Part shown: one piece after another, positions 3,751 to 64,000 of the stretch | How the letters are laid out: each line of letters starts with the position of its first letter | How positions within the stretch are numbered: position 1 is the stretch's first letter | Source of the DNA: Pelagomonas calceolata | Taxonomy: Eukaryota; Sar; Pelagophyceae; Pelagomonadales; Pelagomonadaceae | Length of the DNA stretch: 64,000 bases | Direction of reading: 5' to 3' | NCBI GenBank assembly: GCA_918797485.1 | Contig: CAKKNE010000002.1 | Span: forward strand, 214,501-278,500 | Notes under the pieces: model-generated | The model's input: the letters and a program-made list of their open reading frames with translations, nothing else | The model's database searches: none | Told to the model about the DNA's origin: nothing | Program-made: the position numbers and the translations under genes

Positions 3751-5128
3751 ATGGTTCTGCTCTACATACGAAGGAGGCTCACGCACGCGCTGCAGACTCT
3801 AGCAAGGCATCTGGGCGCGCCGCCGGCGTCTCCCACGCCTTTGACCAGCGAGTGGATCAGCACACGCTGCGAGGGTCTTGACGCGAGCGCTGCTGTCGTC
3901 GTAGAGATCGCGCTGGACGAAGAGAGCGGCGAGAACGGGGCCGTCGCGCGCGTCGCGCTCGGCGGCGAGCGTCTGGTCGTCAAGCGCCCGCCGGCGTCGC
4001 CCGCGGCGAGGGCCGTGGCCGCGATCCAGCAGTGGTACGCGCGAGAGGCTGTGTGGAAATCAAAATTTTACGGCGCGTTCGTGCTGAATCTTCGCGTCGA
4101 CCTCCACGCCATCGACGCGACGCCTGCTCGATGGCGTGGCGATGCCGGTTCTTCACCGCTCGACCGAGCCAGGACGGCCGCGTCATCGCCGAGAAATGAC
4201 TTAGTGAAGAATTGTCGGGTGCACCCGACGCACTGGTTGATTTCCACACAGGCGAGAGGTGCACTGGTACGCGGCGCTCGCGCCGATCGCGGGCGTACGC
4301 TGCCCGCGGTGCCACTGCGCGCGCTACGACGCGCTCACCGGCGAGTACGTCCTCGTGCTCGAGGACCTGCGGGCGGCGGGCTGCCGGCCGCTCGCCGTCG
4401 CGGAGGCGACGGCGGCGGCGACGACGCTCGGCCGCCTCCACGGCCGCTTCGCGGACGTCTTCGACGACGACGCGCGCCGCGAGATTGTGCGCGGGCCCTT
4501 ACCGATCATGCCCATCACGCTGGCACTCGCCATCCCGATCGAGAAGTTCTTCAGAGACTGCTGGAAAGCGGTCCGAGGCGAGCGACGCTACGCGCTCGCG
4601 GAGCTCCTGGCGGACCGCGGCGAGGCCGCGGGCCCCGCCGCGATCGGTCTCCTCGACGCCCTCGCCGCGCCGGGCGCGTACGCGTCGATGACCGAGGCCC
4701 TGGCAGCGCCGCCCCGGACCCTGCTCCATGGCGACTTCCGGCCCGAGAACATGATGGTCGAGGACGCGACGGGCGAGGTCGTGGTCTATGACTGGCAATT
4801 CGCGTCGGTCGGCAACGGTGCGTATGACCTCGCCTACTTCTCGGCTCTGGTGGCGGACCCGGACGATCGGCGCCGCCTCGACCCGGAGCTCCGGCGGGCC
4901 TACGTGTCGGGGCTGGCCGGTAGCGGCGCGCCGGTGCCCCGCGACCTCGAGCGCGACCTTCGTTATGGGTGCCTCCTCGCGCTCGCGTCCTTCGTCATGG
5001 GTGCGGCTGTTGCCGGCGACGACGCAGCCTCGGTCGAGACGCACCGCCGGGGGCTTCGGCGCCTCGCGGCGGCGGCGCTGGACTGGGGCGCCGCGGTAAG
5101 TGACCTGTTCTGTCACTGCTATCGTTAA
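3751..5128 (+). CDS. EcKinase/APH-fold small-molecule kinase, join(3751..4040,4252..5128)
   Basis: The 388-residue protein has the aminoglycoside phosphotransferase/choline-kinase fold of the ecdysteroid-kinase-like group. Residues AREVHWYAALAP at about 95-107 are the helix that follows the Lys-bearing strand (VVKRPP, about 75-80). YVLVLEDL lies in the hinge. LLHGDFRPENMM at about 253 is the Brenner motif with the catalytic Asp, and VVYDWQF at about 275 holds the metal-binding Asp. The substrate is unknown; relatives phosphorylate steroids, choline or other alcohols. One introner interrupts the gene; removing it plus one target duplicate joins ARE to VHWY exactly. The left exon also reads on into the introner, so an unspliced product would be altered from residue 97. 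Confidence 0.75.
4049..4251 (+). mobile_element. introner element = intron of the EcKinase-like gene
   Basis: Element of 203 bp with termini CTGTGTGGAAATCAA and TTGATTTCCACACAG (perfect 15-bp inverted repeats). The flanking 8-bp duplication GCGAGAGG lies at 4041-4048 and 4252-4259. Predicted intron 4041-4251, with a GC donor from the left duplicate and a CAG acceptor from the element end. The core has a 16-bp palindrome around GTCGGGTGCACCCGAC and a hairpin-forming pair of ACGCCATCGA-type blocks. Confidence 0.9.
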
Positions 5129-5858
5129 ATGTAGTATTAAACGCCTTCGTGCGAGGAGAGAGGCGCTATGTCTCGGTCACCCCAGCTTGTCGGTTTTTCT
5201 GGCCAACTTGAACTCAGGCTTGACTAGAAGGCTTGACTCGGAAACTTGACTCGGAACGTTGATATCAAATACTCTCCGAGTCAGCTAATCAAATACTATA
5301 TATACCGAGCAGCCTGAGGGAGAAGGCTCTTCGGATCTTGTTCCCTTTTTAGGCCCGGGTCTTCCTTAATTTATTTATCATGATGTAATTATTTATGGAT
5401 TTATCCTTATTTTATTCAACTTATAGTAGGGGTTTCCCAATGTTACAGCACCATCATTTTCATTACGATTAACGGTACAATGAAGTGAACTTACTTTAGG
5501 TTCACCCCGGTGTTTTTACGGCGCCTACTTAGCGCCGGGCTTGATCCACTTGGATAAGCAGAAAGATACGGGATATAGGGAAATATCAGCTCCGGGCACA
5601 TGTCGGCTGATATAGCGTGCTGATAGGCGAGAGTAATGTAGCCATAGATCCGGCGATAGGGGGCTATGGCGTTGCAGATATATATCTTGGGGAGTTTTCA
5701 CCTCAACAAGGCAGCGGTTCTAACGAGCCCGGCCGCGGTCACGTGACTTGAGTGGGGGACTGTCCGTGGTCTATGCCATAGTAGTATGTTCGTGGTCTTC
5801 AAAAACCGCTGGCATTTACTAGAATTATCTAAACTTGAAGTAACTTGAAGCGGTGAAC
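5129..5858. other. AT-rich intergenic with a 3'-flanking repeat copy
   Basis: Low-GC spacer with no supported gene. At about 5307-5385 it carries one copy of a dispersed repeat (GGGAGAAGGCTCTT ... CTTGTTCC ... GTCTTCCTTAAT) also found near 8757, 26213 and 46799. Confidence 0.5.
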
Positions 5859-6800: not shown

Positions 6801-6921
6801 TTCGGCTGCCAGTTGTTGTGTGTGGAATGATAAGTTAGGCCGGTCAGACAGGACCTATCATCTCCAAAGTCTGTTTCCACTACTGTCGATATGTATCATA
6901 CCGTAGGTACACCTGTACGCG

Positions 6922-8515
6922 ATGGTACGAGATGGTTGCTGTTTCCGATGTCACACACTAATGGTCCAGCGACTGATATTCCCATTGCTGCTTGGGGTGC
7001 TTCCGTCACTCAACACAGGGCTTCCATTCTTCGGGAGCTCAGGTGGTAAGCCCCGCCCGGCGCCAAAGTGCGCCGAGACCCAAGCGGACAATGGCACGAT
7101 CGTCAACCCGCTCTCCTGGCAGCTGAAGTATGTGAACGAGACCGAGACGCTTCGGGACGTGGCGGCGCGCCTCGCTACGCTCGACGCCGCGCGCCGGAGG
7201 ATCATGGGCTCAAATAGCTTGCGGTCTCAAATCCCCTGCAATTTTGGCAAGGTCAAAAATGCCTTCTGCGACAGCGTGAGGACCCCGGCGGCGCGAGCCG
7301 CGCACGCAACACTCGCACGCAAAGTTGAGCTGGCCCTCGACCGCCCAGTCGTCTTCTACCGCCACGAGGGCGATTGTGTTCAAGGCCGCCGTCGTCTCCA
7401 GGGCCGCCGTCGTCTTCTTGACGACAGCAAGGAGTGCCCTGGTAGCTTCGGTGGATCCATTGGCAACCACGTCGGGAACTACTTCCGCGCAAGAGCGTGC
7501 GCGCGGATGGGGGGCATGGACTTTGTCTTCTTGCGGTTTCTCCACGCGTGTCCCCACGAACCCTACGTCTGGCTGCCGGCCGTCGTGGCCACATCCGCCG
7601 CCGCGCAGCCCGAGGCAACCGCCTTTGCGCACGGGTACACGGCCGCCTGCACGAACAACCAGCCGTGGATCCACATGTCGCCTAGCTGGATCCCCGCCGC
7701 GCGCCAGGGCGGTCTCGACATCCGACGCATGACGGCCGCTTGGGCGGAGCGCGAGGGCTTCCCCGGTGACGCGCCCCTCGACGACGTCGCCATTCACCTC
7801 CGCTGCGGCGACGCGCTAACGCAGGCCCACGGGCAATACGGACTCCTCCATTTCGGAGCCCTCGCGGAATTCGTGCCGAGGACGCGACCGTCGACGGTCG
7901 GCCTCATCTCGGAGCCGTACAAGAGCTTCTGCGCGGAAGGCGAGGCCGGGGCCCGTGCCGGCCTCCCAGAGAAGCGCTCGGAGCACTCGGCCCGGTGGTG
8001 CAGCTGCCCCTGTGCGGCCGTGGTCGATGCGCTTGTCGACGCGCTCAAGGTTCTGCGGCCGCTCGCATGAGTCAGTGTTGATACATGCGGGCCTATTCGA
8101 ACTCAGCTTAATTTCCGCACAGGCGACGGTGACGGTCCACGAACGCGACCTGGTCATGGCGTCGTGGCACCGCCTTGCAAACGCGCCGACGGCTTCGATA
8201 TGTATTAGTTCGACGTTTTGCATGTGGCCCGTGCTCGGCGCGCGCCACGGATATTTCATGCAGGGCCCCCTCTTTCCGCGTGCTGACGAGATATCCGATA
8301 AAGTTCCGACCCTGGGTATCATCAAGAGCCCCGGTCTTGTTTCCTACCATACCATCGGCACGAAAAACCTCAAACGGTGCGGCACGTCGGTCGCGACGAT
8401 GCGACGCGCCATCGCCCAGCGGCTGATGCCCAAGGGCGCTCAGCTCTCCGCAAACGCGACTCAAGCCGTTACGATCCGCGGGGCTACGTTGCCACCCGCG
8501 GACGGCGTCTGGTGA
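6922..8515 (+). CDS. putative glycosyltransferase with HLRCGD motif, join(6922..8049,8123..8515)
   Basis: The roughly 506-residue protein has an N-terminal hydrophobic segment (RLIFPLLLGVLPSL) that fits a signal anchor. VAIHLRCGDAL at about 289 resembles motif I (HxRxGD) of fucosyltransferase-type enzymes, followed by VGLISEPY and, in the last exon, ASICISSTFCMWPVL, which resembles the acceptor-loop region of that superfamily. This fits a Golgi glycosyltransferase, family not certain. The intron ends in TTAATTTCCGCACAG, the introner terminus; the donor GTTCTGCG at 8050 keeps the frame. Exon 1 alone stops at 8070, so splicing is needed for the C-terminus. The motif TACCGTAGGTA lies about 20 bp upstream of the ATG. 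Confidence 0.55.
8050..8122 (+). mobile_element. decayed introner = intron (73 nt)
   Basis: The 3' end TTCGAACTCAGCTTAATTTCCGCACAG-type sequence (8096-8122) closely matches the end of the introner at 17801-17961. The left terminus and target duplication are no longer recognisable. A GT donor at 8050 and CAG acceptor at 8122 join two codon-boundary exons. Confidence 0.55.
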
Positions 8516-11488: not shown

Positions 11489-13616
11489 ATGCGCTGCCTC
11501 TGCGTGGCCGTCCTGCTAGGCAGCGCGGTGGCCGATGATTTCAGAGAACACCTCGCGCGGCTGCGGCAGCGGGCCATCGATGCAAAGCACGAGCGGCAGC
11601 AGCCACCGCCAACGCCCCTGGCGCCCGGCGTGGGTCGCAACCGAACGCGTCACGATTCCCAACGTCGACGGCCGCCTGCGACGCGGAGACAGCGCTCGCC
11701 AGAGGCTCGTCCGAACGTGCTCTTCCTCCTCGCAGACGACCTCGCGAAGAGCGCGATCTCGGCCTACGAGAGCCACCTCGCCCGGGACCTTCGGACGCCG
11801 CGGATCGATTCGATTGCTAAAGAGGGCGCGCTGTTTACCAACGCCTTCGTGCCGAACTCGCTTTGCACGCCGAGCCGACTGACGATACTGACGGGCCTCC
11901 ACGCGCACGAGTCCGGAGTCAGGACACTGTCGGGCACTGCCAGCGGCCCCTTTAACCATATCACTGGCAGCGGCCCGGGCCGCTGGAAGCATGTCGCGGC
12001 GGGCGCTCAGTCCTACCCCGCGGTCCTTCGCGCTGCGGGCTACGCGACGGCCCAGGCGGGCAAGTTTGCCGCTGGATTCGAGCACATCGGCGCTGCTGCG
12101 TTCGCCCACTTTCGACCTTTCCGCGAATTAACGTACCGCGACACGGCGTTCTGCGCGGGGTGGCCGGCCGCGTGCCGCCCACTACCACAGCGTCGGGGCC
12201 TGTGTGGAAATCAACCAGTGTGTCGGGTGCACCCGACAATTCTTCACTAAGTCATTTCTCGGCGATGACGTGGCCGACCTGGCTCGGTCGAGCGGCGAGG
12301 AACCGACATCGCCACGCCATCGAGCAGGCGTCGCGTCGATGGCGTGGAGGACGACGCGATGATTCAGCACGAACGAGCCGTAAAATTTTGATTTCCACAC
12401 AGGTCGGGGCCTCGAGTCCGCCGCGATCGCCGCCGAGCTCGAAGCCTGGATAGCGGCGCAGACTGGACCGTTTTATGCCGAGGCCGACTTCTACGCGGCA
12501 CATGACCCCTGGGGCTCGGACCCTTCCGACCGCGCAAAGTTCGTGGCGACGCATTTCGCCGAGCCGGCGAGTCTCTACCACGAGTGGGGCGGCGCCGGTG
12601 CGGCCGGCCACGTCCGCGCGGCGGCCGAGGCCGCGCGCCGCCACCATGCTGGCCTGTTCGACTACAAGCTGGGACCCACGCGCGCATACAGATGCCGCGG
12701 CTGCCTCGTGTCACAGGCCGTGCAGAAGCTCTCCGCGGAGAATCTCCGTCGACTCAAGAGGCCGCCGGAGGACGCCGTCGCGCGGCGGAACGCGACCTAC
12801 CAGGCCATCGCCACGGTGTATTCGCGAACGGTCCTCGGGCTCGACCGCGCCGTCGGCCGACTCCTCGACGCCGTCGAGCCCGCGCGCCACTCGACGGTCG
12901 TCGTCTTTGCGAGCGACCAGGGCATCTTCCTCGGCGAACACGGCCGCATCGACAAGCGCCTGGCGTACGAAGAGGCCATGGCTTTCCCGCTGATTATTCG
13001 GTACCCGCCCCTCGTGCGGCCCGGGTCGAGCGTCGACGCGCTCGTCGCGTCGTTCGACGTCGGCCTGACGGTCCTCGACCTCGCCGGCGCCGCGTACCCG
13101 GAGAGATACGCGGCGCGCCTGCCAGGTTCTTCTCTCGTGCCGCTCCTACGCGGTGATACCGGCGGCCCGCGGACCGCCCACTACTACCGCTACTTTCAGC
13201 ACGCCGCGGCAGTACCGGGCCACGTCGCTGTCCGCGCGGGCGGGCTCAAGCTCATATTCTGGTACGCGCACGACTGCAGCCACGTCATCCGCGACGACGA
13301 CGCGACGCGGCCGCCGCGCCCTCGCAAGTCTCGCGGCGCTTGGAACGGCACTGCCGTGCCGCTCGTCGACGACGCTTGGGAGCTCTTCGACCTCGAGGCC
13401 GACCCGGCGGAGATGCGGAACGTCTGGGCCACGCCCGCCTACCGCAGCCGGCGCTGCGAGGCACTCATTGCGCTCCTCGACGCCAAGCACGACGCGCGCG
13501 ACGACGACGAGCGGTACTGCCCCGAGGCCGTCCAGCAGGGCACCGCGCTTGGCGCGCCCGGGAGGAAGGGCCAAGTCACGGTCGGTGAGCTCTGTGGCAC
13601 CCGACGTCGCGCGTAG
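11489..13616 (+). CDS. secreted sulfatase (alkaline-phosphatase superfamily), join(11489..12191,12403..13616)
   Basis: The 638-residue protein has a signal peptide (MRCLCVAVLLGSAVA) and then a sulfatase domain. RPNVLFLLADDL at about 74 supplies the metal-binding Asp pair. SLCTPSRLTILTGLHAHESG at about 126 is the sulfatase signature, whose Cys is converted to formylglycine (CxPxR). VVFASDQGIFLGEHG at about 400 is the second metal site, and WELFDLEADPAEMRNVW is the usual C-terminal strand of the iduronate/arylsulfatase type. It probably removes sulfate from polysaccharides outside the cell or in a vacuole. One introner splits the gene; splicing joins QRRG to LESA. Removing the intron keeps one frame of exactly 639 codons including the stop. 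Confidence 0.85.
12200..12402 (-). mobile_element. introner element = intron of the sulfatase gene
   Basis: 203 bp, inverted relative to the copy at 4049-4251 but with the same core, including the GTCGGGTGCACCCGAC palindrome. The 8-bp duplication GTCGGGGC lies at 12192-12199 and 12403-12410. Predicted intron 12192-12402, with a GT donor supplied by the duplicate and a CAG acceptor by the element. It shows that either orientation can be spliced. Confidence 0.9.
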
Positions 13617-17626: not shown

Positions 17627-18728
17627 CTATTTTATCCAGTAGAAAGTCGTCCAACCCCCATCAACCCTCTGCGGTTCCTCGCGGCCGGCGGACCGCGTCT
17701 TCGTCGAGATGCTTTGGACCTCGCGGCCGACGGCCTTGGCGAACTCGGTCGCTGCTCTTTGCACGCCAAAGGCGCCTTCTTTGAGGAACCCATCTGGAAC
17801 CTGTGTGAAACTCAACCAGTCACGGTGGTCCACCGGCGCCGGGGCCGAGAGAATCGTACTCGCCACTCTCCACGCCATCGAGCAGGCGCAGTGACAGGGA
17901 CGTCGATTCGATTGTCCACGCTTCTGTCGCCTTCTCGAACTCAGATTTGATTTCCGCACAGTCTGGAACGAAGTCGTGGCCAGAGACCAGTCCCCCTTTT
18001 CGCAGCTTCGGGTACCACGCTTTGAGGTCCTCCAAGCAGCCCTCGTACTCGTGCCGGGCGTCCACGTAGACGAAGTCCAGAGTATTGTCGGCGAACTCCC
18101 GGGCCGCGGAGACGCTGTACTTGCGGTGGATCGCAAAACGAGAACCAAACCTACTCAGTGTCCTCTTCACATGCTCTAGATTCTCCGCGTGTTCGGCGTT
18201 TGGGGCATTAGATACGTCCTGGTATTTGCCGCCCGTCGTCTTCGCGTCGACGGCGTCCTGGTGCTCCCACGGGTCGACGAGGTGCAGCACACGCCCCTTC
18301 CATTGTTGTAGAACGTGTTCCGAGAAGTGCGCCCTACGCACGCCAACCTCCACGCCCTCCCCGGTCAGCCCGAGGTCGTTAAGATATCGTGGCAGGTCGG
18401 CCCGACTCTTGAGCGCGACGTGGCAGAGCGAGTGGTCCGTCGTCGCCGCGGCCGCGGCGGGCGCGAACGATCCGTGACCGCGCACGCCGCCGCCGGCTTG
18501 TGGAGGGGCGCGCGGTTCGGCGCCCGTCCCGCTGTGCAGGAGCGCCACGTTCAGCAGGACCGACGCCGCCAGTGCTAGGCAGACAAGGTGGTGGCCGGGC
18601 ACGGGCGTCGGTGCCTTGGGCTTCTCAATCGCTGGACTCCGGTCGAAGGCTGGGGGAAGTCGGAACGCTCGCTGTCGAGCTCTCATGTGGCTGCCCAAGG
18701 TCCGGTTTTCTGCCGTTGGCTCGATCAA
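17627..18728 (-). CDS. membrane-anchored class I methyltransferase, exons 18728..17970 and 17800..17627
   Basis: The 310-residue protein has a type II anchor at about residues 46-64 (LVCLALAASVLLNVALL) and then a methyltransferase fold: GEGVEVGVRRAHFSEHVLQQ (motif I region, Methyltransf_24 type), RVLHLVDPW (strand 2 acid), LDFVYVDARHEYEGCLEDL (strand 4 and DxxHxY, typical of the family) and LVSGHDF. It probably acts on a glycan in the Golgi lumen; the substrate is unknown. An introner lies between HDF and VPDGF. Without splicing the frame reads on for about 46 other residues, so the true C-terminus is only seen after intron removal. Confidence 0.7.
17801..17961 (-). mobile_element. introner element = intron of the anchored methyltransferase
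   Basis: 161 bp with termini CTGTGTGAAACTCAA and TTGATTTCCGCACAG on the plus strand. The target duplication TCTGGAAC lies at 17793-17800 and 17962-17969 (GTTCCAGA in gene sense). Intron 17969-17801 has a GT donor and CAG acceptor and is phase 0. Confidence 0.88.
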
Positions 18729-25111: not shown

Positions 25112-26065
25112 ATGACGTCTTGGCTCGTGGTGTTGGCGGCCTTGCTGCGTGTGGCCGCCTGGGCCCCGCCCGCGGCGCGGCGCGCCCCGAGGCGCGTTGC
25201 GCTGCGCGCCGCCGCCACGGAGAAGACCGACGAGTTTACGGTCATCGGCAACGACGGCAAGCGCGTCTCGCTCAGCAAGGGCGAGAAGGAGCGCGTCTTC
25301 ATCGACGCGATCCAGAGCTACTACTTCGACGGGCGCCAGGTGCTGAGCGACGCGGACTTTGACCTCCTCAAGGAGGACCTCGCGTGGGAGGGCTCGGAGT
25401 ACGCGGTGCTGTCAAGGAACGAGACGCGGTTCCTGGGCGCCATGGGCGCGTACTCGCGCGGCGAGGAGCCGATCATGAGCGACGACGAGTTCGACGCGCT
25501 CAAGGCGAGCCTCAAGGCCCAGGGGTCGATCGTCGCGTGTTCGACCGAGCCGCGTTGCTTCCTCGACACGGGCATCTGCTCGGTCGCGTTCTGCGCGGAA
25601 ACCAACCGGTGGGTCGAGGTACCCTGCGAGTTATACGACGTCGCGTCGATGGCGCGGGGCGCTTGAAATTGGCTTTCCGCACAGGTCACGTTCACGCCCG
25701 ACCGCTTCCGCGGCCTCGTGCTCTACCTGCCCGCCATCTCGGTCCTCACGCTGCTCTGGACCGGCGGCACGTACGAGCTCATCTCCGCGAGCCGGGGCCT
25801 CAACCCGCTGATCACGCTCCTCATCGGGTCGCCCCTGATCGTGTCGGTCGCGCAGTACCTCACGGAGCAGGTCCTCTTCAAGGACCCGTTCATCGCCCAG
25901 GGGCCGTGCCCTGACTGCGGCGCCAACAACCGCCTCTTCTTCGGCGACATCCTCGGCGTCGAGGGGTTCCAGGCCGAGGGCGACGTCCAGTGCTCCAACT
26001 GCAAGACGGCGCTCAAAGTGAGCCGCGACACGCTGCGGGTGAGCTGCAAAAAGGCGCTTTTTTAG
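25112..26065 (+). CDS. PGRL1: PGRL1-like thylakoid protein, join(25112..25582,25685..26065)
   Basis: The 283-residue protein has an N-terminal hydrophobic segment and Arg/Ala-rich transit region fitting a plastid presequence. Family marks follow in order: DFDLLKEDLAWEGSEYAVL at about 90, FLGAMGAYSRGEEPIMSDDE at about 115, LKAQGSIV, a transmembrane stretch (LVLYLPAISVLTLLWTGG) at about 168, a second one (LITLLIGSPLIVSVAQYL), and a Cys-rich end with CPDCGANNRLFFGDIL and CSNCKTAL. In plants PGRL1 works with PGR5 in ferredoxin-dependent cyclic electron flow around photosystem I. The introner removes cleanly, joining CSV to TFTPDRF. Unspliced, exon 1 would stop at 25666. Confidence 0.82.
25591..25684 (+). 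mobile_element. introner element = intron of PGRL1
   Basis: 94 bp with termini CTGCGCGGAAACCAA and TTGGCTTTCCGCACAG. Target duplicates GTCGCGTT (25583-25590) and GTCACGTT (25685-25692) differ by one base, so it is older than the perfect copies. Intron 25583-25684, GT donor, CAG acceptor, phase 0. Confidence 0.85.
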
Positions 26066-47098: not shown

Positions 47099-49178
47099 CT
47101 AGGCGCAGCGGACGGCGGCGCCGGGGTTGAGGCGGAACCCGTGGCGCTCGGCGCGCGCCCACCAGCCGTCGAGCGCGTCGACGTCGATGGGCCCCGTCTC
47201 GTGCGCGCCGAGGTCGTCGCGCGCGTGCACGATCGCGGCGGCGAGACAGGCGGGCACGGTGCCCTGGACGTCGTGGCAGAACGTGAGGTCCGTGTCCTTG
47301 GCGTCGTAGACGAGCGCCGCGCCGTTCACGTAGGCGTACCTGGCCGACGGCCGCGGCACGAGGTGCGGCACCGCGTAGTCGACGACCAGCGCGTCGTCGC
47401 GGACGGCGCGGTGGATCGTGGACTCGAACGCGAGCTTGCCGAGGAGCCAGACGTCGGGCCGCAGCGCGGCGGCGTCGTCGTAGGTGTGCGCGCGCCGCAG
47501 CCGCGCGCCCGCGGCGCCCGCCTGGCGCACGAGGTCGGCGAAGCGGTCGGGCGCCGTCGTCAGGCAGACGACCTCGTGGCCGCGGCGCGCGAGCGCGATG
47601 GCGAGCGCGCGCCCGATCTTGGCCGTGGCGCCCGTGACGCACACCGTGTCCTCGGGCAGCGTCTTCCGCCGCACCGTCTCGAGCACGGCGGCCGCCGTCA
47701 GCGCGTTGCCGTGGACGATCTTCACGGCGTAGCCGCGCGCCTCGCAGCGCGCGCGCACGGCCTCGCCGCCGCCGTTGAGCCACTCGGCCTTGTTCAGCGC
47801 CGCGAGGCCGACGTAGCGGACGCCCGCGCGCTCCGCGGCGTCGACGGCGGCCTCGAGCTTGCGCTGGATCGCGGGCCGCTCGCCCTTGTTGAGGTAGAAG
47901 CGCGCGGCGACGGGCAGGCACCACGTCGCGACCTGCGTGCCGCGGTACTGGTAGCGCTGCATGACCGTCGCCGGCAGGAGCAGCTGCGCGAGGCGCGCCC
48001 AGACGTAGCACAGCGGCCAGAGCAGCGTCGCGACCCAGCCCGTCGCGTGCGTGACCGAGCAGAGGAACGGCGACACGAAGGGCACGTGCGTGACCATCGA
48101 GGGCACGTCGTGGCCGTGCGCGAGGAAGACGACGTCCGTCGGCCGGCGCCGGCGCGCGCGGTCCGTGACCTCGCGGTGGAGCGCCTGCGACGTCGGGTGC
48201 GCCGTGCCGCAGAGGTGGTCCCAGATGGGGCAGAAGAGGCAGTAGTTCCACTTGTACTTGGAGTGGTGCAGCGAGTGGTAGCACGACGTGTAGACGTAGT
48301 ACTTGAGCGGGCCCCACTGGGCCCAGCGCGGGAAGCACTCGAAGTTGCAGTGGCCCGCGCAGTTCATGACGTCGAACCTGCGCGGAAATCAGCCGGTGAG
48401 CGGGGGTAGCCTTCGTGCCCCTCCGCGGCGGCGACGTCGCGTCGACGGCGTGGGGCGCCCGACGTTGGCTTTCCGCGCGGCGTCCGAACCACACGAAGTA
48501 GAGCGGGATCTGGCCCAGGCTGAAGCGGCCGCACCAGGCCGGCACGAGGAACGCGAGCGAGAAGTTCGCGAGGTAGGCGACGCTCTCGTAGAGCGGGTGC
48601 GACGTGCCCGACACGGCCTCGGTGACGACGGACGCGTGGTGGTGGCCGTGCGACCGCCGGTAGGCCCAGTCGCCGTGGAGCCAGACGTGGAACGCGTAGT
48701 AGACGGGCTCGACGCAGGCGTAGTGCGCCGCGAAGAGCGCCGCCACGGACCGCGCGTCGCACGGCCCGACGCGGTCCGGCCGCAGCCACGGCGTCAGCAG
48801 GTCGACGAGCACGAAGGCCAGCGGCGACAGGATGACGGGCCCGTCCCAGTCGAGCTCGCGCTCGAGCTGCTGCGCGGGCGGGTTCTTGCGGTGGATGCGC
48901 CGCGGCTCGGCGAAGGCGTCCCACTTGGAGAGCGCCACGAACGCGTGGTTCACGACGTAGCGGAGGAGCGTCGCCTTGGCCAGGGCGGGCACGAGGTGCG
49001 CGCCGGCGCCCGTCGCCAGCGACAGCAGGTACGTGAACGCGTAGATGGCGTACTTGGGGTCGAGGATCCAGCGCTCGGCCGCGGGCTCGGGCGGCGCGAG
49101 CCCGGCTTTCGCCACGTCCCCGACGAGCGGGCTCTGCAGCTGCCTGAGCGACGGCGGGCGCTGGCCGCCGCGACCCAT
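47099..49178 (-). CDS. CER1/WAX2-like membrane protein (fatty acid hydroxylase domain), exons 49178..48490 and 48377..47099
   Basis: The 655-residue protein has several transmembrane segments in its N-terminal half and the di-iron His motifs of the sterol-desaturase/fatty-acid-hydroxylase superfamily: HVWLHGDWAYRRSHGHHH at about 165 and HSLHHSKYKWNY at about 263. The C-terminal half (GATAKIGRALAIALARRGHE and following) is the Rossmann-like WAX2 domain. This two-part build is that of plant CER1/CER3, which convert very-long-chain aldehydes to alkanes in the ER; an alkane- or wax-forming role is inferred. The introner falls between the two main His clusters, and splicing gives YFVWFDVMNCAGHCNFE, a conserved run. 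Confidence 0.8.
48378..48480 (-). mobile_element. introner element = intron of the CER1-like gene
   Basis: 103 bp. The acceptor end in gene sense reads GCTGATTTCCGCGCAG. The exon-side duplicate is GTTCGACG (48377-48370) and the intron-side duplicate is GTTCGGACG (48489-48481) with one inserted base. Intron 48489-48378, GT donor, phase 2. The drift sits only in the copy that is removed by splicing. Confidence 0.82.
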
Positions 49179-52101: not shown

Positions 52102-55100
52102 TTAGTCCCGAAGCTCATCCACCGCCGACCGGGCCCGCGCGATCGCCTCGTCGAGCGGCTCGGCGGCGGGCATGAGGAGCTGCGGTGACGAGGCGGCGGA
52201 GAAGTCGTCGTCGGCGCGGGACTCGGCCAGCACGAGCGAGTTCTCGACCAGCGCCGCCTTCGCGGCCTCGACGCGCTGCAGGGCCTCGCGCTCGCGCCGC
52301 GCCACGGCCTCCTCGAGCTCGGCCTCTTCGGCCTCCCTCTCCGAGCGGAGCTGCGCGCTCTGCGCCGCGGCGACGGCGCGCGCGCTCTGCGCTTTCTTCC
52401 GGCGCGCCGCGGCGGCCTCGGCGCTCTTCGCGGCGGCCTCGGCGCGATCGCACGCGGCGAGGCGCCGCGCCCGGGCACGCTCGGCCGTGATCGCCTGCGC
52501 GCGCCGGGCCGCGCCTGTGCATAAATCAACCAGTGAGTCGGGTGCGACAACGCCGCGCCATCGAGCTGGCGTCGCGTCGGTGGCGTGGAGGTCATGATTG
52601 AGCCGTGGCGGAGACGCGTCGCGACAGTTTGATTTATGCACTGGGCCGCGCCGTCCTCGGCCTGTTGGCGCGCCAGCGCGGCCTCCTCGGCGCGCGCGGC
52701 CGCCTCCTGGTCGGCCAGGAGCTTCTTCGCGGCCTCCTCCGCGGCCTCGGCGGCCCGCGCCTCGGCGTTCTCGGCGAGGCGCCGGTCGCGGGAGGCGCCG
52801 TGCTCGGCGGCGACTCGGCGGAACTCCGCGCGGGCGATGTCCGTCGCCTGCCGCGGCTCGTAGGCGAGCTTCGGATACGCGGCGACCGAGTCGCCCCGCG
52901 GCAGCGGCATGGGAAACCGATCGTTGGCCACGTTCGCGGCGCCGGCGATGCTGGCGAGGCCGCGCGCCAGCGCCGCCGGGCCCGTCGTCTTCGCGCCGTC
53001 GGGCTCGGCCCGCGCGAGGCGCGCGAGCAGCGGGTCCGCCGCGCACCGCCTCTCGAGCGCCCACAGCTCGGGCCAGACCGCACTGCCGCAGGCCAGGGGC
53101 GACCGGACGAGGCGGACGACGTCGTGGACGCTCTCGGCCGCGAGCATCGGGCCCCGCGCCGCGGTCGCGACGGCGACGGGCGCGAGCAGGAGCCGGTGGG
53201 GCCGGTCGGGCCGCGCCAAAATGTGGTCCCAGAGCCGGAGCCAGTCCTCCTTCCGCAGGCACTCCGACCTGCGCGGGAACCGGAGTTCGGGACGCTGTTC
53301 CCGTGACCGCGTTGCTTCAGACGAAGGCCGCGAAAGTCTTCCGATTTCCGCGCGCGTCGCGACAGGAACGACCGCAGCACCGGCCAGGCCCAGTCCGTCG
53401 GCGTGCAGCCCAGGGCGCCCAGGTGCGCGGCCACCTCGGCGTCGTAGTTCTGGAGGAGCCGCTCGACCGCGTTCAGCGCCGGCAGCGGCGGCTCGGGCCA
53501 GCACGCGAGCCAGCCGCGCGCCCACTTGCCGAGGAGGCATACGACCGTCTCGAAGGTGCACAGCGCGTCGCCCTCGAACGCGAGCGCGAACGGGTAGACG
53601 GCCGCCGGCAGCCAGTCCGCGTCGGCGAGCGCCGGGCACCAGCGCCCGAGCGCGCCGCAGCACTCGACGAGCGCCGTCGCCGCGTTGCTCCGCGGCAGCT
53701 TGGCCGCGCGCCTCCGGCACGCGGCCGCGGCCCGCGCGGCTGCGTCGACCGCCGCGCCCTGCCCGCCGTCGCCGCACCGGAGCGCGTCGAACGCCGCCTG
53801 CCTCTCCGGCAGGTCCAGGAGCGCGCGCCACGCTAGCGAGCGATGCTCGGCGGGAAACTCGCCCTCCTCGCCGAGGACCCGCCGCAGGCGCGCGGGCGTC
53901 AGTGCGTCGGCGTCGCACGGGCGCGCGACCCTGTGCAAGGGCGCGCCGCGGCGCGGCGCCGCCCGCCGCGGGCGCGGCGGCGGCGGGAGCGCGGGCGGGC
54001 CTTTGAAATCCCACGGCGCGGGCGCCGGCGCGGGCGCCGGCTCGGGCGCCGCGGGCTCGGGCGCCGGGAAATACCGCCGCAGCGGCGTCGGACCGACCGG
54101 CTGGCGGCGCCGCGCGACGGCCAGGTCGAGGAGCAGTAGCTCGCCGTCGGCGGTCGCGACCGCGACGGACGCCCCGGCGGCGGCGGCCGCGACGACGACG
54201 GCGCGCGGCGCGACGGCGAGCGTCGCGGCGGCGGCGCTGGTCTGGCTCACGTCCAGGGCGTTGAGCCGGCCGTCCTCGCCGAGCGCGAGCAGGTCGGAGC
54301 CGGCCCGGAGGAGCGCCACGAGCGAGCGCGCGCGCGGCGGCGGCGCGGACAGCCGCTCGAAGGCGCCGCCGGGGGCCCACTCGCAGAGGAGCGGCCCGCC
54401 GGCCACGACCGCGCCCCCGGGGAGCGCCGCGAGGCAACACCAGACGCCCCGCGACGGCGCCTCGCCGTGCTGCCGCGGCGAGAGCTGCGCCGTCGCCTGC
54501 CCGCTAGACGGGTCGACGAGGTGGACGACTCCGTCGCGGTCCAGGACGACGGCGTTCCCGTCGGTCCCGACCGCCGCCGCCGCGACCTCGGCCCCGGCGC
54601 CTTCGAAGGCGCTCTGCCGCAGCCAGTCGCCGTCCAGGGTCCAGAATCGCGCCGCGTCGCGTGCCGCCGTGACGACGAGGCGGTCGCGGGCGTCCAGGGT
54701 CGCGATCGAAGTCCCGGGGGCGTGCGCGGCGGCGACCTCGGAGAGAGTTCCCGTCGCCGCGTCGACGGCGACGAGCCGCGGAGCCCGCGGGTGGCAGACG
54801 GCGCACGCGACTCGGTCGCCGACCCACGCCAGCGCCGTCGCCCGCGCGTCCAGCGTCGCGACGCGCTCGAACCGGTTCCGCGCCGCGTCCACGACGACGA
54901 GCGCGCCGCGCTCGTCGCCCGCGGCCACGCGCGCGCCCGCGTCGACGGCCACGGCCGTGAAGCGCACGCGGGAGTCCGCGGAGGCCGGCCGATTTTGCAA
55001 CACGCACACGATGCCGTCGGCCGTCGGCCGCGGCGCGCGCCCGGGCGGCCACAGGCTGCCGGAGCAGGGCTGCTTGCCGCCCGGGACCGAAGTGGTCGAG

Positions 55101-58075: not shown

Positions 58076-59559
58076 ATGAGTGCCGCGGCCGAGTGGCGCG
58101 CGCTCCTGCAGGAATTCCCGGCGAGGTGCGTCACCTCGGCGGCCTTACGTCGTAGGAAGCGCTGGCGGAAGAAGTGCGCCCGCCTGTGCGCCGCGCAAAA
58201 CGGGCTCCCGCCCGAGGTCCGGCGCGACGTCTGGGCGCGCATGCTGGCGGCCGCGGCCGAGGCGGCGCCGCGCATCACCGACGCCGCGCCGGCGCCGGCG
58301 CCGGCGCCGGCGAACGACGCGGCCGCGCCGCGCATCGTCGGCAGCTCGTCGCGGTCCCTCGTGCCCGCGAACGAGGACTCGCCGCGCTGGGCGCGCGCGC
58401 GCCGGCGGTCGGACGACGGCCGCATCGCCGAGAACATTCCGCGCGAGATCGCCCTCGACGTGCCGCGCACGCTGACCGGCTCCGGCTCCGCCGACGAGGC
58501 GACCGAGGACTGCGGGGCGGGCGCGAAGCGGCTGCGCCGGCTGCTCACGCACTTCGCGCGGACGGCGCCGCCGGACCAGGGCTACTGCCAGGGCCTGAAC
58601 TTCCTCGGCTCGACCCTCTTGCGCGTCTTCGACGCGAACCGCGACCCGCGTGCGACGACCGTCGACGCGCGGGGCGCCCTGGCGTTCCGCGGGCTCGTGG
58701 CGCTCGTGGCGCCGCTCTACGCGCCGGACTTCCGAGGGCTCCGGGAGCTCGTCGCCGTCGCCGGCGCCGTCCTGCCGGCGTACGCGCCGCGCCTCGCGGC
58801 GCTCCTCCGCGACGAGCTGTGTGGGAATCAAGCAGTTAGGTTATCCCGAGGAACCTCCACGCCATCGAGCAGAGGCTGTGACGGGGACAACGTCGCATCG
58901 ACGGCGTGGGGCGCCTGAAGTTTGATTTCCACACAGGCGACGAGGACCTGGACCTGATGCCGATCGTCTCGAGCTGGGTCCTGGCCCTCTTCGCCGCGAC
59001 GCCGATGCCGCCGCAGAACGTCCTCGTCTGCTGGGACCTGCTGCTCCTGGGCACGCCGAGCCGCCGCGAGCTGAGCCTCGAACGCTGCGCGGGCGGCCGG
59101 CCGCGCGACCGCGACACGGGCTCGGGCTCCGACGACGCCGCGGGCGCGCCGGCCCTGTTCGCGCGGCCGCGCGCGGCCGCGCGACGGTTCTTGCGGCTCG
59201 GGAGCATCGAGGACGCCGCGGCCGAGAAGATGGGCGCGTCGGCGAAGCGCCACGTGGTGCTGCTGCGCCTCTGCCTGGTCATGCTGCGCGTCGGCGAGGA
59301 ACGCATCGGCGACGCCGCCGACGGCCTCGACGCGCTCAGCCGCCTCGGCGCGGCCTGGTTCCCCGCGACGCCGCCGGACCTGTGCTCGCGGTTCCTCGCG
59401 TGCGAGATCCGCTCGAAGCCGATCCGCGCCGCCGCCAGGAGGCACCGGCGCGACCGGGCGCGTGAAAAACGCGCGAAGCAGGGTCTGCCTCCGCGCCCCC
59501 CCGGCGCGCTCGCGCGGCTCCGCGCCCTGCTTTCGCCGGACCCGGGCACGACGCTCTGA
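58076..59559 (+). CDS. TBC-domain Rab GTPase-activating protein, join(58076..58808,58937..59559)
   Basis: The 451-residue protein is a compact RabGAP. NGLPPEVRRDVWARMLAA at about 42 opens the TBC domain. IALDVPRTLTG at about 126 is the IxxDxxRT motif with the catalytic Arg, and PPDQGYCQGLNFLGSTLLRV at about 165 has the YxQG motif with the catalytic Gln. So, unlike the TBC1D31-like protein, it should be active. The second exon has PIVSSWVLALFAATPMPPQN, the conserved SWF-like helix. Membrane traffic regulation is inferred. One introner interrupts the domain; splicing joins LAALL-RDEDLDLMPIVSSW. Confidence 0.82.
58817..58936 (+). mobile_element. introner element = intron of the TBC RabGAP gene
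   Basis: 120 bp with termini CTGTGTGGGAATCAA and TTTGATTTCCACACAG. Perfect duplicates GCGACGAG lie at 58809-58816 and 58937-58944. Intron 58809-58936, GC donor, CAG acceptor, phase 1. The core (GTTAGGTTATCC) belongs to the second introner subfamily, shared inverted with 61552-61743. Confidence 0.9.
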
Positions 59560-59647
59560 ATTTTGCTGCTACTCTACTAACGACTACGACCATTCCTGTT
59601 CTACAATTCCACAAGCTTACAACACACACCAAAAAAGAAGAACCGAG

Positions 59648-61086: not shown

Positions 61087-62327
61087 ATGTACCGCCACGC
61101 GTTCCGAGTCCTCGCCCAGCGCGCGCCGGTCGCGACGGCCGCGGCGGCGACGGCGCTCGTGGTCGCGCCGCCGAGCCGCTGCGACTGGTGGTCGTCGAAG
61201 ACGCCGTCGGCGCCCGCGCCCGCGGCGGTGGCGGCGCCGCCCGTCGTCGAACCCAAGACCGGCGTCGAGTTCCCCGCGGAGCAGGGCGGCCTCAAGCTCG
61301 CGGGCTGCGGCGTGCGCGTCTGTGTGGAAATCAAAATTTTATGGCGCGTCGACCTCCACGTCATCGACGCGACGCCTGCTCGATAGCGTGGCGGTGGTGG
61401 TTCCTCACCGCTCGACGGAGCCAGCACGGCCGCGTCATCGCCGAGAAATGACTTAGTGAAGAATTGTCGGGTGCACCCGACGCACTGTTTGATTTCCACA
61501 CAGGTGCGCGTCAAGTACGGCTTCATCAAGGTGTACGCCGTCGGCGTGTACCTGTGTGGAAATCAAATTCGGGCGCCCCACAGATGTTGTCTCCGTAGCT
61601 GCGTCTGTGCGATGGCGTGGCGATTCCACGCCATCGACGCGACGTTGTCCTTGTGGCTGCGCCGGTTCGATGGCGTGGAGGTCCACGAAGGTCCACGCAA
61701 TATTTCTCAGGATAACCTAGCTCACTGCTTGATTTCCACACAGGCGTGTACGTGTCGCCGCGCGTCGCGCTGGACAAGCGCGCGGCGTCGCCGCTCGCGG
61801 CGCTGCGGACCGCGCGCCGCGACGGCGCCGTCGTCGAGCTGCGCCTCACCATGGCGCGCGACGTCCCCAAGAAGACGTTCGTCGACGCGCTCGCCGAGCA
61901 GATCACGCCGCGCGCCGGGGCGCCCCAGAGCGACACGTTCGCCGCGGCGATCACGGGCGGCCTGCGCGACCCGACGCCCGAGGGCTCGACGACGACGATC
62001 CGGCTCGATCCCGACGGTACGATCCTGTGCGCAAATCAACCAGTGAGTCGGGTGCACTCTTACTCTGCTGCAGCGCGGCCGCGAAGACTGAATCGAGGGG
62101 CGCAAGACCCACACCGCCACGCCGTCGAGCTGGCGTCGCGTCGAGTCGCGCCGCGACAATTTGATGTACGCACAGGTACGATCTCGGTCCTCGACGACAC
62201 GGGCCTCGTCACCGCGCACGTCGTCGTGCCGGCCGTCTGCGACGCGTTCCTCGACATCTACCTCGGCGCCGACGGCATATCGCCGACGACCCTCGAGGCC
62301 GTCAAGGCCGGGCTCGAGAAGTTTTGA
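61087..62327 (+). CDS. chalcone-isomerase-like protein, join(61087..61311,61504..61543,61744..62016,62176..62327)
   Basis: The 229-residue protein starts with a mitochondrial- or plastid-type presequence (MYRHAFRVLAQRAPVATAA). EPKTGVEFPAEQGGLKLAGC and VRVKYGFIKVYAVGVYVSP are the first two strands of the chalcone-flavanone isomerase fold; VELRLTMARDVPKKTFVDAL and a C-terminal AVCDAFLDIYLGADGISPTT with the FLDIYLG motif complete it. Most algal members are fatty-acid-binding or redox-related rather than flavonoid enzymes, and that is the likelier role. Three introners split a 690-nt coding sequence, leaving a 40-nt exon; all four exons join in frame with the family sequence intact. Confidence 0.85.
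61320..61503 (+). mobile_element. introner element = first intron of the CHI-like gene
   Basis: 184 bp of the same subfamily and orientation as 4049-4251, with perfect termini. Duplicates GTGCGCGT lie at 61312-61319 and 61504-61511. Intron 61312-61503, GT donor, phase 0. Confidence 0.92.
61552..61743 (+). mobile_element. introner element = second intron of the CHI-like gene
   Basis: 192 bp, second subfamily (ends GGATAACCTAGCTCACTGC before the terminal repeat), with perfect termini. Duplicates GCGTGTAC lie at 61544-61551 and 61744-61751. Intron 61544-61743, GC donor, phase 1. Confidence 0.92.
62025..62175 (+). mobile_element. introner element = third intron of the CHI-like gene
   Basis: 151 bp with variant termini CTGTGCGCAAATCAA and TTTGATGTACGCACAG. 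Perfect duplicates GTACGATC lie at 62017-62024 and 62176-62183. Intron 62017-62175, GT donor, phase 1. Its core is close to that of 52515-52643. Confidence 0.9.
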
Positions 62328-62365
62328 GCGCGGCCCCCTCGGGCAGAATATAAGGTCTCGTCTGC

Positions 62366-64000
62366 TTAGGGTTCTTCACTAGTCGGCCGCGCGGCCTCGT
62401 CGTCGACGACGTCGAGCGCGGCCGATATGTGCGCCGCGGCGAGGAGCGAGTTGTCCCAGAGGTGGAAGAGGTGGAGGAGGAAGTTGTGCCGCAGGTTCTG
62501 GCCCGCGATCTCGGCCGCGTGCGCGCGCGCGAAGGCGACGACGGCCCGCGGCACGTCGCGGTCGGCCTGGATGGGCCGCGCGAAGATCCAGCGGTTCCAG
62601 AGCTTCATGAACGCCTTCTCCGGCGGCGTCACGTCCTCGAACTCGTCCAGCAGCACCTCGGCGCGCCGGAGGCGCCAGCCCTCGTCGACCTCGTCGTCGC
62701 TGTCGTAGCCGCTCTGGAGGAGCCGCGGGTGGATCGGCTGGCCCGTGCGCGCGTGGTAGTACTGGCGCGTCGGCGCGGTCGGGCGCGGCGTGCCGAGCGG
62801 CAGGTCGGCCTGCGCGCCCGCCGCGGCCGCCGCCTGGCGCACCACGTACTGGTCCTTCGAGCAGCACTTGACGACGCCCGGCGGCGGCGGCGCCGCCACG
62901 ATGAGGGGCGGCGCCGCGTCGTCGTCGTCGTCGTCGCCCGCGAGGGCCCCGGCCCGCCGCGCCGCCGCGGAGACCGCCCGCGGCGTCGCGACGACGTGGA
63001 GGCGGTCCCGGTCGTCGAGGAGGCACTCGAAGCGGAGCGCCGGGCTGTGGCTCGCGCGGAGGTGCTGCGCCAGCGCCCGGCTCGTCCCGGCCTGGAAGCC
63101 GCACCACGCGCACGCGGCCTGCGTGGACATAGACTCACCGGGCGCTCGCCGCGAAATTGGACTTCGACGCCGCGCGCGACGGCGTCGGTGCGCGACACGC
63201 GCGAGGCAAGCGCCCGCGTCGCCGCGTCCCAATACACGAGGTGGTAGAAGACGCACGCCGGCACGGCGTCGCCCGCGGGCGCGCCCGGGGGCGCCGGCGT
63301 CGGCGCGGCCGCCACGGCGCGGGCGGCCGCGAGCGACGCGGTCGTCGCGCCCGCCGGCGCGCAGGCCCACGCGGCGCCGACCCGCACCGTGTAGGCGCCG
63401 GCCGCCTTGCGCTGGGCCTTGAGCTTGACGGCTTCGAAGCCGCCGCGCGCGGCGGCGGGCGCGTCGGCGAGGCCGAGGATGCCCCGCGTCGCGTCGCCCG
63501 CGAACGTCTTGTGGACGTCGACGAGCGCGCCGTGCGACGCGCGGCCCAGCGGGCCCGGCAGGCCCGCCTGCGTCACCGCGTGCTGCTCGAGCGCCTCCTT
63601 CTCGCTGAGGGTCGCGGCCGAGAAGGTGCAGGCGTCCGGCCAGCGGAGAAAGGCGCCCTCGTCGGCGGCGCCGTCGCCCGCCGCGTCGAAGACCTGCAGC
63701 GCGACGCAGGCGCGGCGCGTGCCGTCGAGCATCGCCGACGCCTCCGTGTCGAAGCAGAGCCAGACCTCGTCGCCCGGCGGGGCCTCCTCCTGCGTCTTGC
63801 GCTTCTTCGACGCCGGGGGCTTGCTTCCGGCGCCGGCCGCCTTCTTCGACGCCGGAGGCTTGCTGCCGCCGGCGGCCGCCGGGGCGGCCGTCAGGCGCAC
63901 GGGGCGCGCGGCCTCGAGCGGCGCGAGCGTCCGCCCCCGGCGCTCGTAGAGCGTCGCGCACAGGAGCCGCGCCCCCGCCGGCGCCCCGGCCGCGCTTAGC
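62366..64000 (-). CDS. SUZ12-like PRC2 subunit (partial, runs off right edge), exons 64000..63181 and 63118..62366
   Basis: At least 523 residues are visible. CVFYHLVYWDAATRALAS is the strand before the zinc finger, ACAWCGFQAGTSRALAQHLR plus ASH is the C2H2 finger, and the C-terminus is a VEFS box: QYYHARTGQPIHPRLL, GYDSDDEVDEGWRLRRAEVL, PPEKAFMKLWNRWIFARP and NLRHNFLLHLFHLWDNSLL. This order is specific to Su(z)12/EMF2/VEF proteins of Polycomb repressive complex 2, which methylates H3K27. A Lys-rich duplicated stretch (SKPPASKK, twice) lies near the window edge side. A 62-nt introner intron sits just before the zinc finger. The N-terminus is outside the window. Only 38 bp separate its stop from that of the CHI-like gene. 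Confidence 0.85.
   Translation of the reverse strand, partial: AKRGRGAGGGAAPVRDALRAPGADARAARGRAPRAPDGRPGGRRRQQASGVEEGGRRRKQAPGVEEAQDAGGGPAGRRGLALLRHGGVGDARRHAPRLRRAAGLRRGGRRRRRRGRLSPLAGRLHLLGRDPQREGGARAARGDAGGPAGPAGPRVARRARRRPQDVRGRRDAGHPRPRRRARRRARRLRSRQAQGPAQGGRRLHGAGRRRVGLRAGGRDDRVARGRPRRGGRADAGAPGRARGRRRAGVRLLPPRVLGRGDAGACLARVAHRRRRARRRSPISRRAPGESMSTQAACAWCGFQAGTSRALAQHLRASHSPALRFECLLDDRDRLHVVATPRAVSAAARRAGALAGDDDDDDAAPPLIVAAPPPPGVVKCCSKDQYVVRQAAAAAGAQADLPLGTPRPTAPTRQYYHARTGQPIHPRLLQSGYDSDDEVDEGWRLRRAEVLLDEFEDVTPPEKAFMKLWNRWIFARPIQADRDVPRAVVAFARAHAAEIAGQNLRHNFLLHLFHLWDNSLLAAAHISAALDVVDDEAARPTSEEP
63119..63172 (-). mobile_element. minimal introner (54 bp) = 62-nt intron of the SUZ12-like gene
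   Basis: In gene sense the 5' part (GAAGTCCAATTTCGCG) resembles the inverted end of the PGRL1 introner, and the 3' end is TATGTCCACGCAG. Duplicates GTCGCGCG (63180-63173) and GCCGCGTG (63118-63111) match at 6 of 8. Intron 63180-63119, GT donor, CAG acceptor, phase 0; it joins RTDA to AACAWCG. Confidence 0.68.

Follow-up and report, generated by a model that had tools for sequence, protein, structure and literature searches.

The window, the whole 64,000-nucleotide stretch of Pelagomonas calceolata DNA analyzed here, was described by 33 hand-made gene models. Eighteen introns in 14 genes (lettered A to Q, with O1 and O2) were recovered from the coding map and the reading of junctions, the same numbers as in the first-pass annotation. 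Fourteen are termed clear and four (B, F, M, and Q) worn. All 18 lie inside gene models, and the reading frame resumes after their removal.

Intron A (4041..4251, plus strand; element 4049-4251, 203 nt) has a GC donor and interrupts an APH/EcKL-like kinase gene (3751-5128), with its duplicate GCGAGAGG present twice. Intron C (12192..12402, plus; element 12200-12402, 203 nt) lies in a sulfatase gene (11489-13616), with GTCGGGGC twice and the element in the orientation opposite to that in A. Duplicates also occur in two identical copies at intron D (17801..17969, minus; element 17801-17961; GTTCCAGA) in a methyltransferase gene (18686-17630), at intron H (40881..41022, plus; element 40889-41022; GTGGGCGG) in gene 40504-42184, where the end is CAGTGCACAAATC, and at intron I (42916..43093, minus; element 42916-43085; GCCGCGAG), which lies in a PhyH gene (43832-42638) and is a version of the 203-nt form with an internal deletion. 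The same PhyH gene hosts intron J (43201..43329, minus; element 43201-43321; duplicate GCAGGAGC/GCTGGAGT, 6/8). Intron E (25583..25684, plus; element 25591-25684; gene 25112-26065) has the duplicate GTCGCGTT/GTCACGTT (7/8) and a repeat start, CTGCGCGG, that lacks GT. The element of intron G (39317..39372, minus; gene 40282-38892) is just 48 nt long, and its duplicate (GTACCGCG/GCACCGCG, 7/8) has GC in the exonic copy and GT in the donor copy. Intron K (48378..48489, minus; element 48378-48480), in a fatty-acid-hydroxylase/CER1-like gene (49178-47102), has the duplicate GTTCGGACG/GTTCGACG, 8 bases with one inserted base. Intron L (52515..52651, minus; element 52515-52643; GCGCGGCC twice) is located in gene 55105-52105, whose TBC match is weak, and shows the variant TGCATAAATC at both ends; its two ends have TGCATA, and a copy in a metagenome-assembled genome (MAG) contig, L025 7303, has the same variant at just one end. 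Intron N (58809..58936, plus; element 58817-58936; GCGACGAG twice) interrupts a RabGAP-TBC gene (58076-59559). A chalcone-isomerase-like gene (61087-62327) contains three introns on the plus strand: O1 (61312..61503; element 61320-61503; GTGCGCGT twice), O2, 40 nt downstream, with a GC donor (61544..61743; element 61552-61743; GCGTGTAC twice), and P (62017..62175; element 62025-62175; GTACGATC twice).

The worn intron B (8065..8122, plus; about 58 nt; gene 6922-8515) ends at the acceptor AATTTCCGCACAG, which matches the repeat at 11 of 13 positions. Its putative donor was placed by an 8/13 terminus behind it, with a duplicate of only 4/8, and position 8014 (GCGGCCGT, 6/8) is an alternative donor. 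Intron F (30677..30800, minus), in an EGF-methyltransferase gene (32278-30457), combines the acceptor GATGTCCACACAG (12/13) with a trace of the core sequence, and its probable donor is the one that gives a gapless junction alignment with the intronless paralogue at 21333-22850. Intron M (53269..53363, minus) shares its gene with L; each end matches at 9/13, and the duplicate at just 4/8. Intron Q (63119..63180, minus; 62 nt as placed) lies in a SUZ12/VEFS-box gene (63732-62369), with an acceptor of 10/13, a start of 9/13, and a duplicate of 6/8.

Element ends are inverted repeats (CTGTGTGGAAATC ... GATTTCCACACAG), matched at 9 to 13 of 13 bases in the 14 clear introns and in M, and an element therefore terminates in CACAG in either orientation. 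When up to three mismatches are allowed, CTGTGTGGAAATC is found 30 times in the window versus 7.2 ± 2.6 times in shuffles, and the longer end CACTGGTTGATTTCCACACAGGY 10 times versus none expected. In each of the 18 acceptors, 9 to 13 of the 13 bases agree with the terminal repeat; among other AG-ended sites in the window, 34 of 6664 reach at least 9. Twelve of these other sites reach at least 10, ten being introner ends and two chance sites, and the nine that reach at least 11 are all further ends of catalogued introners. Similarity extends to the interior: A and C, in unrelated genes, are 96% identical over 205 nt, and parts of I and O1 (141-160 nt) are 92 to 96% identical to A, to C, and to each other. 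The earlier proposal of a single family finds good support from a profile for 14 introns (those from which the profile was built) and from termini for the other four. The profile found no further place in the window at an E value of <0.05, and no intergenic copies were found there. Rfam gave no match at gathering thresholds, nor did three exact patterns in viral contigs. Paired changes in the two ends, as in L, are possibly just TIR subfamilies.

Direct comparison of the 8-bp target duplicates gave the ten perfect cases counted in the first-pass annotation (A, C, D, H, I, L, N, O1, O2, and P) and four near-perfect ones (E, G, J, and K). Recognizable duplicates had been claimed for 16 of the 18 introns; the claim stands for these 14, and the remainder was not accepted. 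The duplicates of B (at the chosen donor), F (3/8), and M are no better than mispaired ones, the score of M being equaled in 123 of 306 deliberately mispaired duplicates, and the 6/8 of Q is reached by four of its 32 candidate donors. Over all 18 introns, 122 of 144 duplicate positions match, versus a mean of 62 and a maximum of 90 in 10,000 shuffles, a total that includes donors of our own choosing, from among many, for B, F, and Q. The worn four could thus be ordinary older introns that resemble introners by chance, as their nonsignificant duplicates, their author-chosen donors (B, F, and Q), and their profile values (E of 0.68 for F and 4.9 for B, with no match for M or Q) would allow. We nevertheless regard this as improbable, given the rarity of acceptors like theirs among other AG sites, the fact that nearly all such sites at 10/13 or better are themselves introner ends, the core retained in F, and the start termini of B, M, and Q.

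The donor end also follows a rule. Every clear duplicate (14/14) begins with GT (8) or GC (6) in the sense of the gene, which is far from the coding background (GT, 0.046; GC, 0.145; P = 9e-11), and per site a GT start is retained at 3 to 4 times the rate of a GC start. The mirror end begins with GY in 2 of 14 cases, about as expected, and both element orientations are used (7 and 5, with 2 undecided), so the rule is set by the strand of the gene and not by that of the element. Three elements in alga-like contigs of a mis-binned MAG, with the perfect duplicates GTCATGAC, GTCGCCAC, and GTCGGCCG, also obey it; the exonic duplicate of F, which starts with TC, runs against it. The junctions thus suggest that the duplicated target supplies the donor and the inverted repeat the acceptor, the gene being restored exactly.

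The donor might instead be a GT inside the inverted repeat (CTGT^GTGG), in which case each insertion would add 12 nt, or four residues, to the mRNA. Such a geometry (8 + 4 nt, in frame) is identical to that drawn for one Aureococcus sp. family in Fig. 2F of Gozashti et al. (PMC9860276), an in-frame GT is available in 8 of the 14 clear introns (A, C, G, I, J, N, O1, and O2), and the ORFs longer by 12 nt are open in all eight constructed (A, C, I, J, N, O1, O2, and P). The in-frame GT is missing, however, from D, E, H, K, L, P, and M, and so is not the donor in those introns, and a repeat-borne donor leaves the GY start of all 14 clear duplicates unexplained. The longer proteins also scored lower in seven of seven Pfam tests (71.3 versus 82.5 bits for J and 28.7 versus 32.4 for O2; for A and I, the best model shifts by <1 bit); a lower score is, however, what any insertion would tend to produce. 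The repeat GT is kept in five of six elements with GC duplicates and three of eight with GT duplicates, a difference that is not significant (Fisher P = 0.14), and a link between GC duplicates and a retained repeat GT was not adopted. The GY rule, the seven elements without the repeat GT, and the lower Pfam scores led us to reject the repeat GT as the main donor, a role that we consider unlikely for it.

Removal of the first duplicate together with the element exactly restores reading frames and conserved domains. In A, C, I, J, K, N, O1, O2, and P, a Pfam domain spans the junction, as it does in Q at a score below the curated cutoff; such domains point to a formerly uninterrupted gene rather than to current splicing. 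Several copies are nearly identical with perfect duplicates, and hence young, as would be expected if the segments were unspliced transposon copies that had recently broken genes. This is very hard to reconcile with the location of all 18 in coding genes whose frame resumes, with the persistence of GY and AG ends in conserved genes whose copies are worn (J, K, Q, and others), or with the gene-strand GY rule, which has no other evident cause, and we give it almost no weight compared with the reading as spliced introns.

A gene finder that knew nothing of splice sites except GT/GC and AG, and whose codon table came in part from exons next to introns A and C, ended 11 of its 13 introns at introner acceptors; under a stricter setting the figure was 10 of 12. 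It missed 7 of the 18 acceptors, predicted both borders of M, the sole intron for which it found the exact donor, and chose the same acceptor with a different donor (63162) for Q. Its first settings, which merged adjacent genes, and a run on six MAG contigs with the window codon table, which was too noisy, were dropped. In predicted folds, the two ends pair in 12 of 14 introns (all but H and J), and the GY is free in 13 of 14. Fold energies stand out in only six copies (A, C, I, N, O1, and O2; z of −4.1 to −5.2, from 30 single-base shuffles each) compared with +0.4 to −1.8 in the other eight, so pairing appears to be inherited from the repeats and not selected, and folding as a splicing requirement was rejected.

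The 19 single-ORF models agree, within the limits of such a check, with the first-pass statement that no gene lacking an element has an intron. Twelve have a Pfam match and seven have none; the match covers most or all of the domain for, among others, aconitase, class II tRNA synthetase, LETM1, Mt ATP synthase B, and UBX, and is partial for GDI (5-58 of 436), Exostosin (212-249 of 293), 2OG oxygenase, and the methyltransferases. A frame break was seen in only one single-ORF gene, the Exostosin gene near 2000, where a 1-base frameshift is a better reading than an intron. Introns in untranslated regions, or small in-frame introns in genes without homologues, may nevertheless occur.

Near-identical copies in unrelated genes, TIRs, 8-bp duplicates, and exact restoration together bear out the earlier suggestion of intron-making transposons. 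The 18 introns are, on this evidence, very probably introners, i.e., short nonautonomous DNA transposons with TIRs that turned into spliceosomal introns when they inserted. Insertion duplicates 8 bp of coding DNA, and the spliceosome would find its donor in the GY that opens the first duplicate and its acceptor in the AG of the inverted repeat, leaving the mRNA unchanged. Insertions whose duplicate lacks a GY start on the gene strand would be removed by selection, GC donors could mature to GT, as G may illustrate, and a transposase encoded elsewhere presumably mobilizes the elements, none being detected by Pfam among the 33 window proteins.

Such a mechanism is already published for algae of this kind. 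Huff, Zilberman, and Roy reportedly described in 2016 introners of Aureococcus anophagefferens and Micromonas pusilla that carry one splice site and co-opt the other from the duplicated target. Published descriptions of introners in these two algae give direct and terminal inverted repeats, both orientations, and a length of ~210 nt, and GC-AG introns are put at 39.6% in A. anophagefferens (PMC10228655, PMC9860276, PMC9481584, and PMC7789003). The likeness to pelagophyte introners noted in the first-pass annotation fits: as described, those of A. anophagefferens are also short nonautonomous DNA transposons in a pelagophyte, and GC-AG accounts for 6 of the 14 clear introns here. Unlike the Aureococcus and Micromonas introners, the window includes very short (48-nt) and strongly worn copies. 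The P. calceolata genome is described as having 0.45 introns per gene, a length peak near 210 nt likened to introners, and 63% GC (PMC9481584), compared with 0.55 (18 introns in 33 models), a longest intron of 211 nt, and 66% GC in the window; the passages of that paper on P. calceolata give no sequence, TIR, or duplicate for the introns. Introner family 4 of Aureococcus sp., as depicted by Gozashti et al. in 2022 (Fig. 2F, PMC9860276), shares the 8-bp duplicate and has an internal donor after 4 nt, as in CTGT^GTGG; in that family both splice sites lie within the element and 12 nt are added, whereas here the GY of the duplicate is taken as the donor and nothing is added. Amoebophrya introners, as described, share inverted repeats at intron ends, able to pair in RNA, and boundary direct repeats, but have mostly noncanonical splice sites and 3- to 5-nt direct repeats (PMC7789003), in contrast to GY-AG and 8 bp here.

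The window offers a clean catalogue of one intron-birth mechanism at many stages of wear in recognizable genes and, from DNA alone, points to selection for splicing as what sorts insertions by the strand of the gene. The abundance of GC-AG introns in such algae has been a puzzle (PMC3033335), and our analysis suggests an answer in GC-rich targets, in which GC is available at three times the frequency of GT, despite the better per-site retention of GT. It is conceivable, if rather doubtful, that practically the whole present intron set of this alga, and not a recent burst alone, derives from one TIR transposon lineage, the ancestral introns being gone and the repeat serving as a direction-neutral acceptor module with a second donor. 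If so, even worn remnants of 50 to 60 nt in conserved genes (SUZ12-like) would have begun as introners, the acceptor module would consist of a candidate branch site resembling TTGAT, a short run of pyrimidines, and CACAG, and the second in-frame donor, 12 nt in, could let young GC-duplicate copies yield two isoforms. The strong statement thereby becomes testable, as the share of a eukaryote's introns that stems from a single transposon lineage.

The coding map based on codon usage, together with junction reading, gave the same numbers as the first-pass annotation, 18 introns in 14 genes (introns A to N, O1, O2, P, and Q), and frame changes in the map coincide with most elements. A two-strand gene finder, which allowed any intron starting with GT or GC and ending in AG, had no knowledge of the elements, and used a codon table trained partly on exons beside introns A and C, returned 36 genes with a total of 13 introns. 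Of the latter, 11 (A, C, E, H, I, K, L, M, N, O2, and Q) end exactly at the last base of an introner, a short nonautonomous transposon turned intron; the remaining two are located at the window edge (41-95) and over intron G with different borders (39235-39518). A stricter setting placed 10 of 12 introns on introner acceptors. The gene finder missed seven of the 18 acceptors, found the exact donor for M only, and gave no good sign of further introns of a different kind in the window, the method being weak in untranslated regions and genes without homologues. All 18 introns are contained in 33 hand-made gene models covering 72% of the window (chance probability, 0.0025 for the 18 and 0.0095 for the 14 clear elements, i.e., all except the worn introns B, F, M, and Q), which is only a hint, as introns were sought in genes.

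The terminal repeat (≤3 mismatches) occurs at 30 sites in the window versus 7.2 expected, and the longer end CACTGGTTGATTTCCACACAGGY at 10 sites versus 0 expected. Elements at 4049, 12200, 42916, and 61320 are joined by long near-identical segments (92-96%). The final 13 bases of all 18 introns match GATTTCCACACAG at ≥9 positions: 13 in A, C, I, N, O1, and O2; 12 in F; 11 in B, D, E, H, and K; 10 in J, L, P, and Q; and 9 in G and M. Apart from the 18 acceptors, the window has 6,664 AG-ended 13-mers, of which 34 show ≥9 matches, 12 show ≥10, and 9 show ≥11; opposite ends of these introners account for 10 of these 12 and all 9. The gene finder's introns provide the fairer count for this test, as the 18 were partly located through these ends. 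A profile built from the 14 clear elements, scanned independently of gene positions, recovers these same 14 (E ≤1.2e-5), matches F (E 0.68) and B (E 4.9) weakly, gives no hit for M or Q, and indicates no additional place in the window at E <0.05. At the sequence level, the terminus test ties the worn introns to the introner family.

Target duplicates of 8 bp had previously been considered recognizable in 16 of the 18 introns. The two copies are identical in ten introns and differ by one mismatch in E and G, by two in J, and by one inserted base in K. Mispaired duplicates attain 4/8 in 123 of 306 cases, so B and M (4/8 each) and F (3/8) do not stand out from them. Q is marginal at 6/8, a level also seen with four of the 32 donors considered for this intron; 14 of 18 duplicates are therefore accepted. 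Over all 18 introns, 122 of 144 duplicate positions match (shuffled mean, 62; maximum, 90). The donor of intron B was placed by an 8/13 terminus behind it, and position 8014, where the duplicate would match at 6/8, is a possible alternative donor.

On the gene strand, the first duplicate of the 14 clear introns begins with GT (eight) or GC (six), together GY, and the exonic copies begin with GT (seven) or GC (seven), against a coding background in the window of 4.6% GT and 14.5% GC (p = 9e-11 for GY starts). On the other strand, the opposite duplicate end begins with GY in two of 14, near the 2.7 expected. Profile scores orient seven clear elements one way and five the other, with two undecided; introner insertion in both orientations is credited to Huff et al. 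2016 in PMC10228655. The gene-strand rule is attributed to selection for splicing, since a transposase with symmetric ends is blind to gene strand. The donor would thus be a GY borrowed from the first duplicate, the acceptor AG would be carried by the element, and the mRNA would gain nothing from insertion. Intron G has GCACCGCG as its exonic duplicate and GTACCGCG at the donor, which would fit a change of the donor from GC to GT. Alternatively, a GT inside the inverted repeat could serve as donor, adding 12 nt per insertion to the mRNA, as described for one Aureococcus sp. introner family in PMC9860276. However, no in-frame GT is present in the repeat of D, E, H, K, L, P, or M, and their first duplicates start with GT (GC in L), which argues for an intron composed of first duplicate plus element. 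Proteins with the extra 12 nt also scored lower in seven of seven Pfam tests, by 0.6 to 11 bits, only mild evidence because any insertion tends to reduce the score.

With introns removed, Pfam domains span the junctions of A (APH/EcKL), C (sulfatase), I and J (PhyH), K (fatty acid hydroxylase), N (RabGAP-TBC), and O1, O2, and P (chalcone-isomerase-like) and, below the curated cut-off, Q (SUZ12-type zinc domain) and, below cut-off, M (TBC). The B, E, G, and H proteins gave no Pfam match; D is located at a domain edge and L outside a domain. The intron F junction, NALKPGGLLIFN^DRWWDS, aligns without gaps to NALKPGGYFVLEDRYADS of an intronless paralogue. These EGF-like plus methyltransferase paralogues (minus strand; 21333-22850 without and 30457-32278 with intron F) share 23% identity. 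Just upstream of them, 22957-23032 and 32343-32418 are 66-84% relatives of the inner part (ATTTGAGTCTATACA...AAAACACTCTCG) of a 202-nt segment present in two exact copies 336 nt apart (19616-19817 and 19952-20153). The SUZ12-like Polycomb gene (62369-63732, minus strand) has a VEFS-box, and its below-cut-off zinc domain is split by a worn introner about 62 nt long.

Three exact element patterns had no match in viral contigs. The 20-mer TGTGTGGAAATCAACCAGTG matched one contig in the genome contig collection, NZGT01000054.1, labeled Spirochaeta sp. isolate MED672. Six small contigs of this metagenome-assembled genome (MAG; L025 and L026, with L028, L030, L040, and L041 by composition) look like algal contamination of a public bacterial genome, judging from gene content, including an acetyl-CoA carboxylase-like gene with introns (identified by reading), and CpG excess (observed/expected, 1.25-1.34 in the six, including NZGT01000054.1, and 0.97-1.12 in the other 16 contigs examined). 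Four introner-family elements are found in L025 and L026. Three have perfect duplicates and GT starts (L026 1432-1539, GTCGGCCG; L025 6254-6335, GTCATGAC; L025 7303-7359, GTCGCCAC), and the fourth, L026 2255-2397, has one end placed only, with GT directly after. As read from sequence, all 17 clear insertions (14 in the window and three in the MAG) follow the GY rule. TGCATAAATC occurs as a terminal variant at each end of the intron L element (52515-52643) and at one end of L025 7303-7359 and may mark a subfamily of the terminal inverted repeat. At L026 2053-2640, an introner copy is located either between two diverging paralogous genes (MSDATTL... and MSDANVL...) or at the gene starts. In the carboxylase-like gene, intron-like segment 5915-5997 has no recognizable introner sequence and 6430-6520 shows a core trace only, which weakens the claim that all introns are introners.

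The Pelagomonas genome is about 32 Mb in size; the window (64 kb) has one gene per 1.9 kb, 66% GC, and a CpG observed/expected ratio of 1.34. Its gene density is closer to that of Pelagomonas calceolata (16,667 genes, 63% GC) than to that of Aureococcus (11,520 genes in 56 Mb, 67.4% GC), whereas its GC content is closer to that of Aureococcus (PMC9481584). An Exostosin-like (GT47) gene (about 1220-2300, plus strand) has a 1-base frame break near its FEAI-GG/SVPIL motif, either a pseudogene or a sequencing error.

The proposal that introns in the window are introner transposons of one family is borne out by termini, duplicates, the GY rule, and restored domains. Extended to the whole genome, 18 of 18 would give a lower 95% bound on the introner share of introns of about 85% with the four worn introns accepted and about 56% without, from one window that is not a random sample. 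In earlier studies, a 210-nt intron length peak of Pelagomonas calceolata was likened to introners (PMC9481584), donors are recruited from duplicates with up to 50% GC donors in some introner families (PMC9860276), and the 39.6% GC-AG introns of A. anophagefferens were termed an enigma in origin (PMC3033335). Literature on introners with Pelagomonas, Aureococcus, and intron gain yielded no further pelagophyte introner papers by title or abstract start. This type of intron birth is already published; the analysis adds the strand specificity of the GY rule, the corrected duplicate count, and the terminus test for worn introns.
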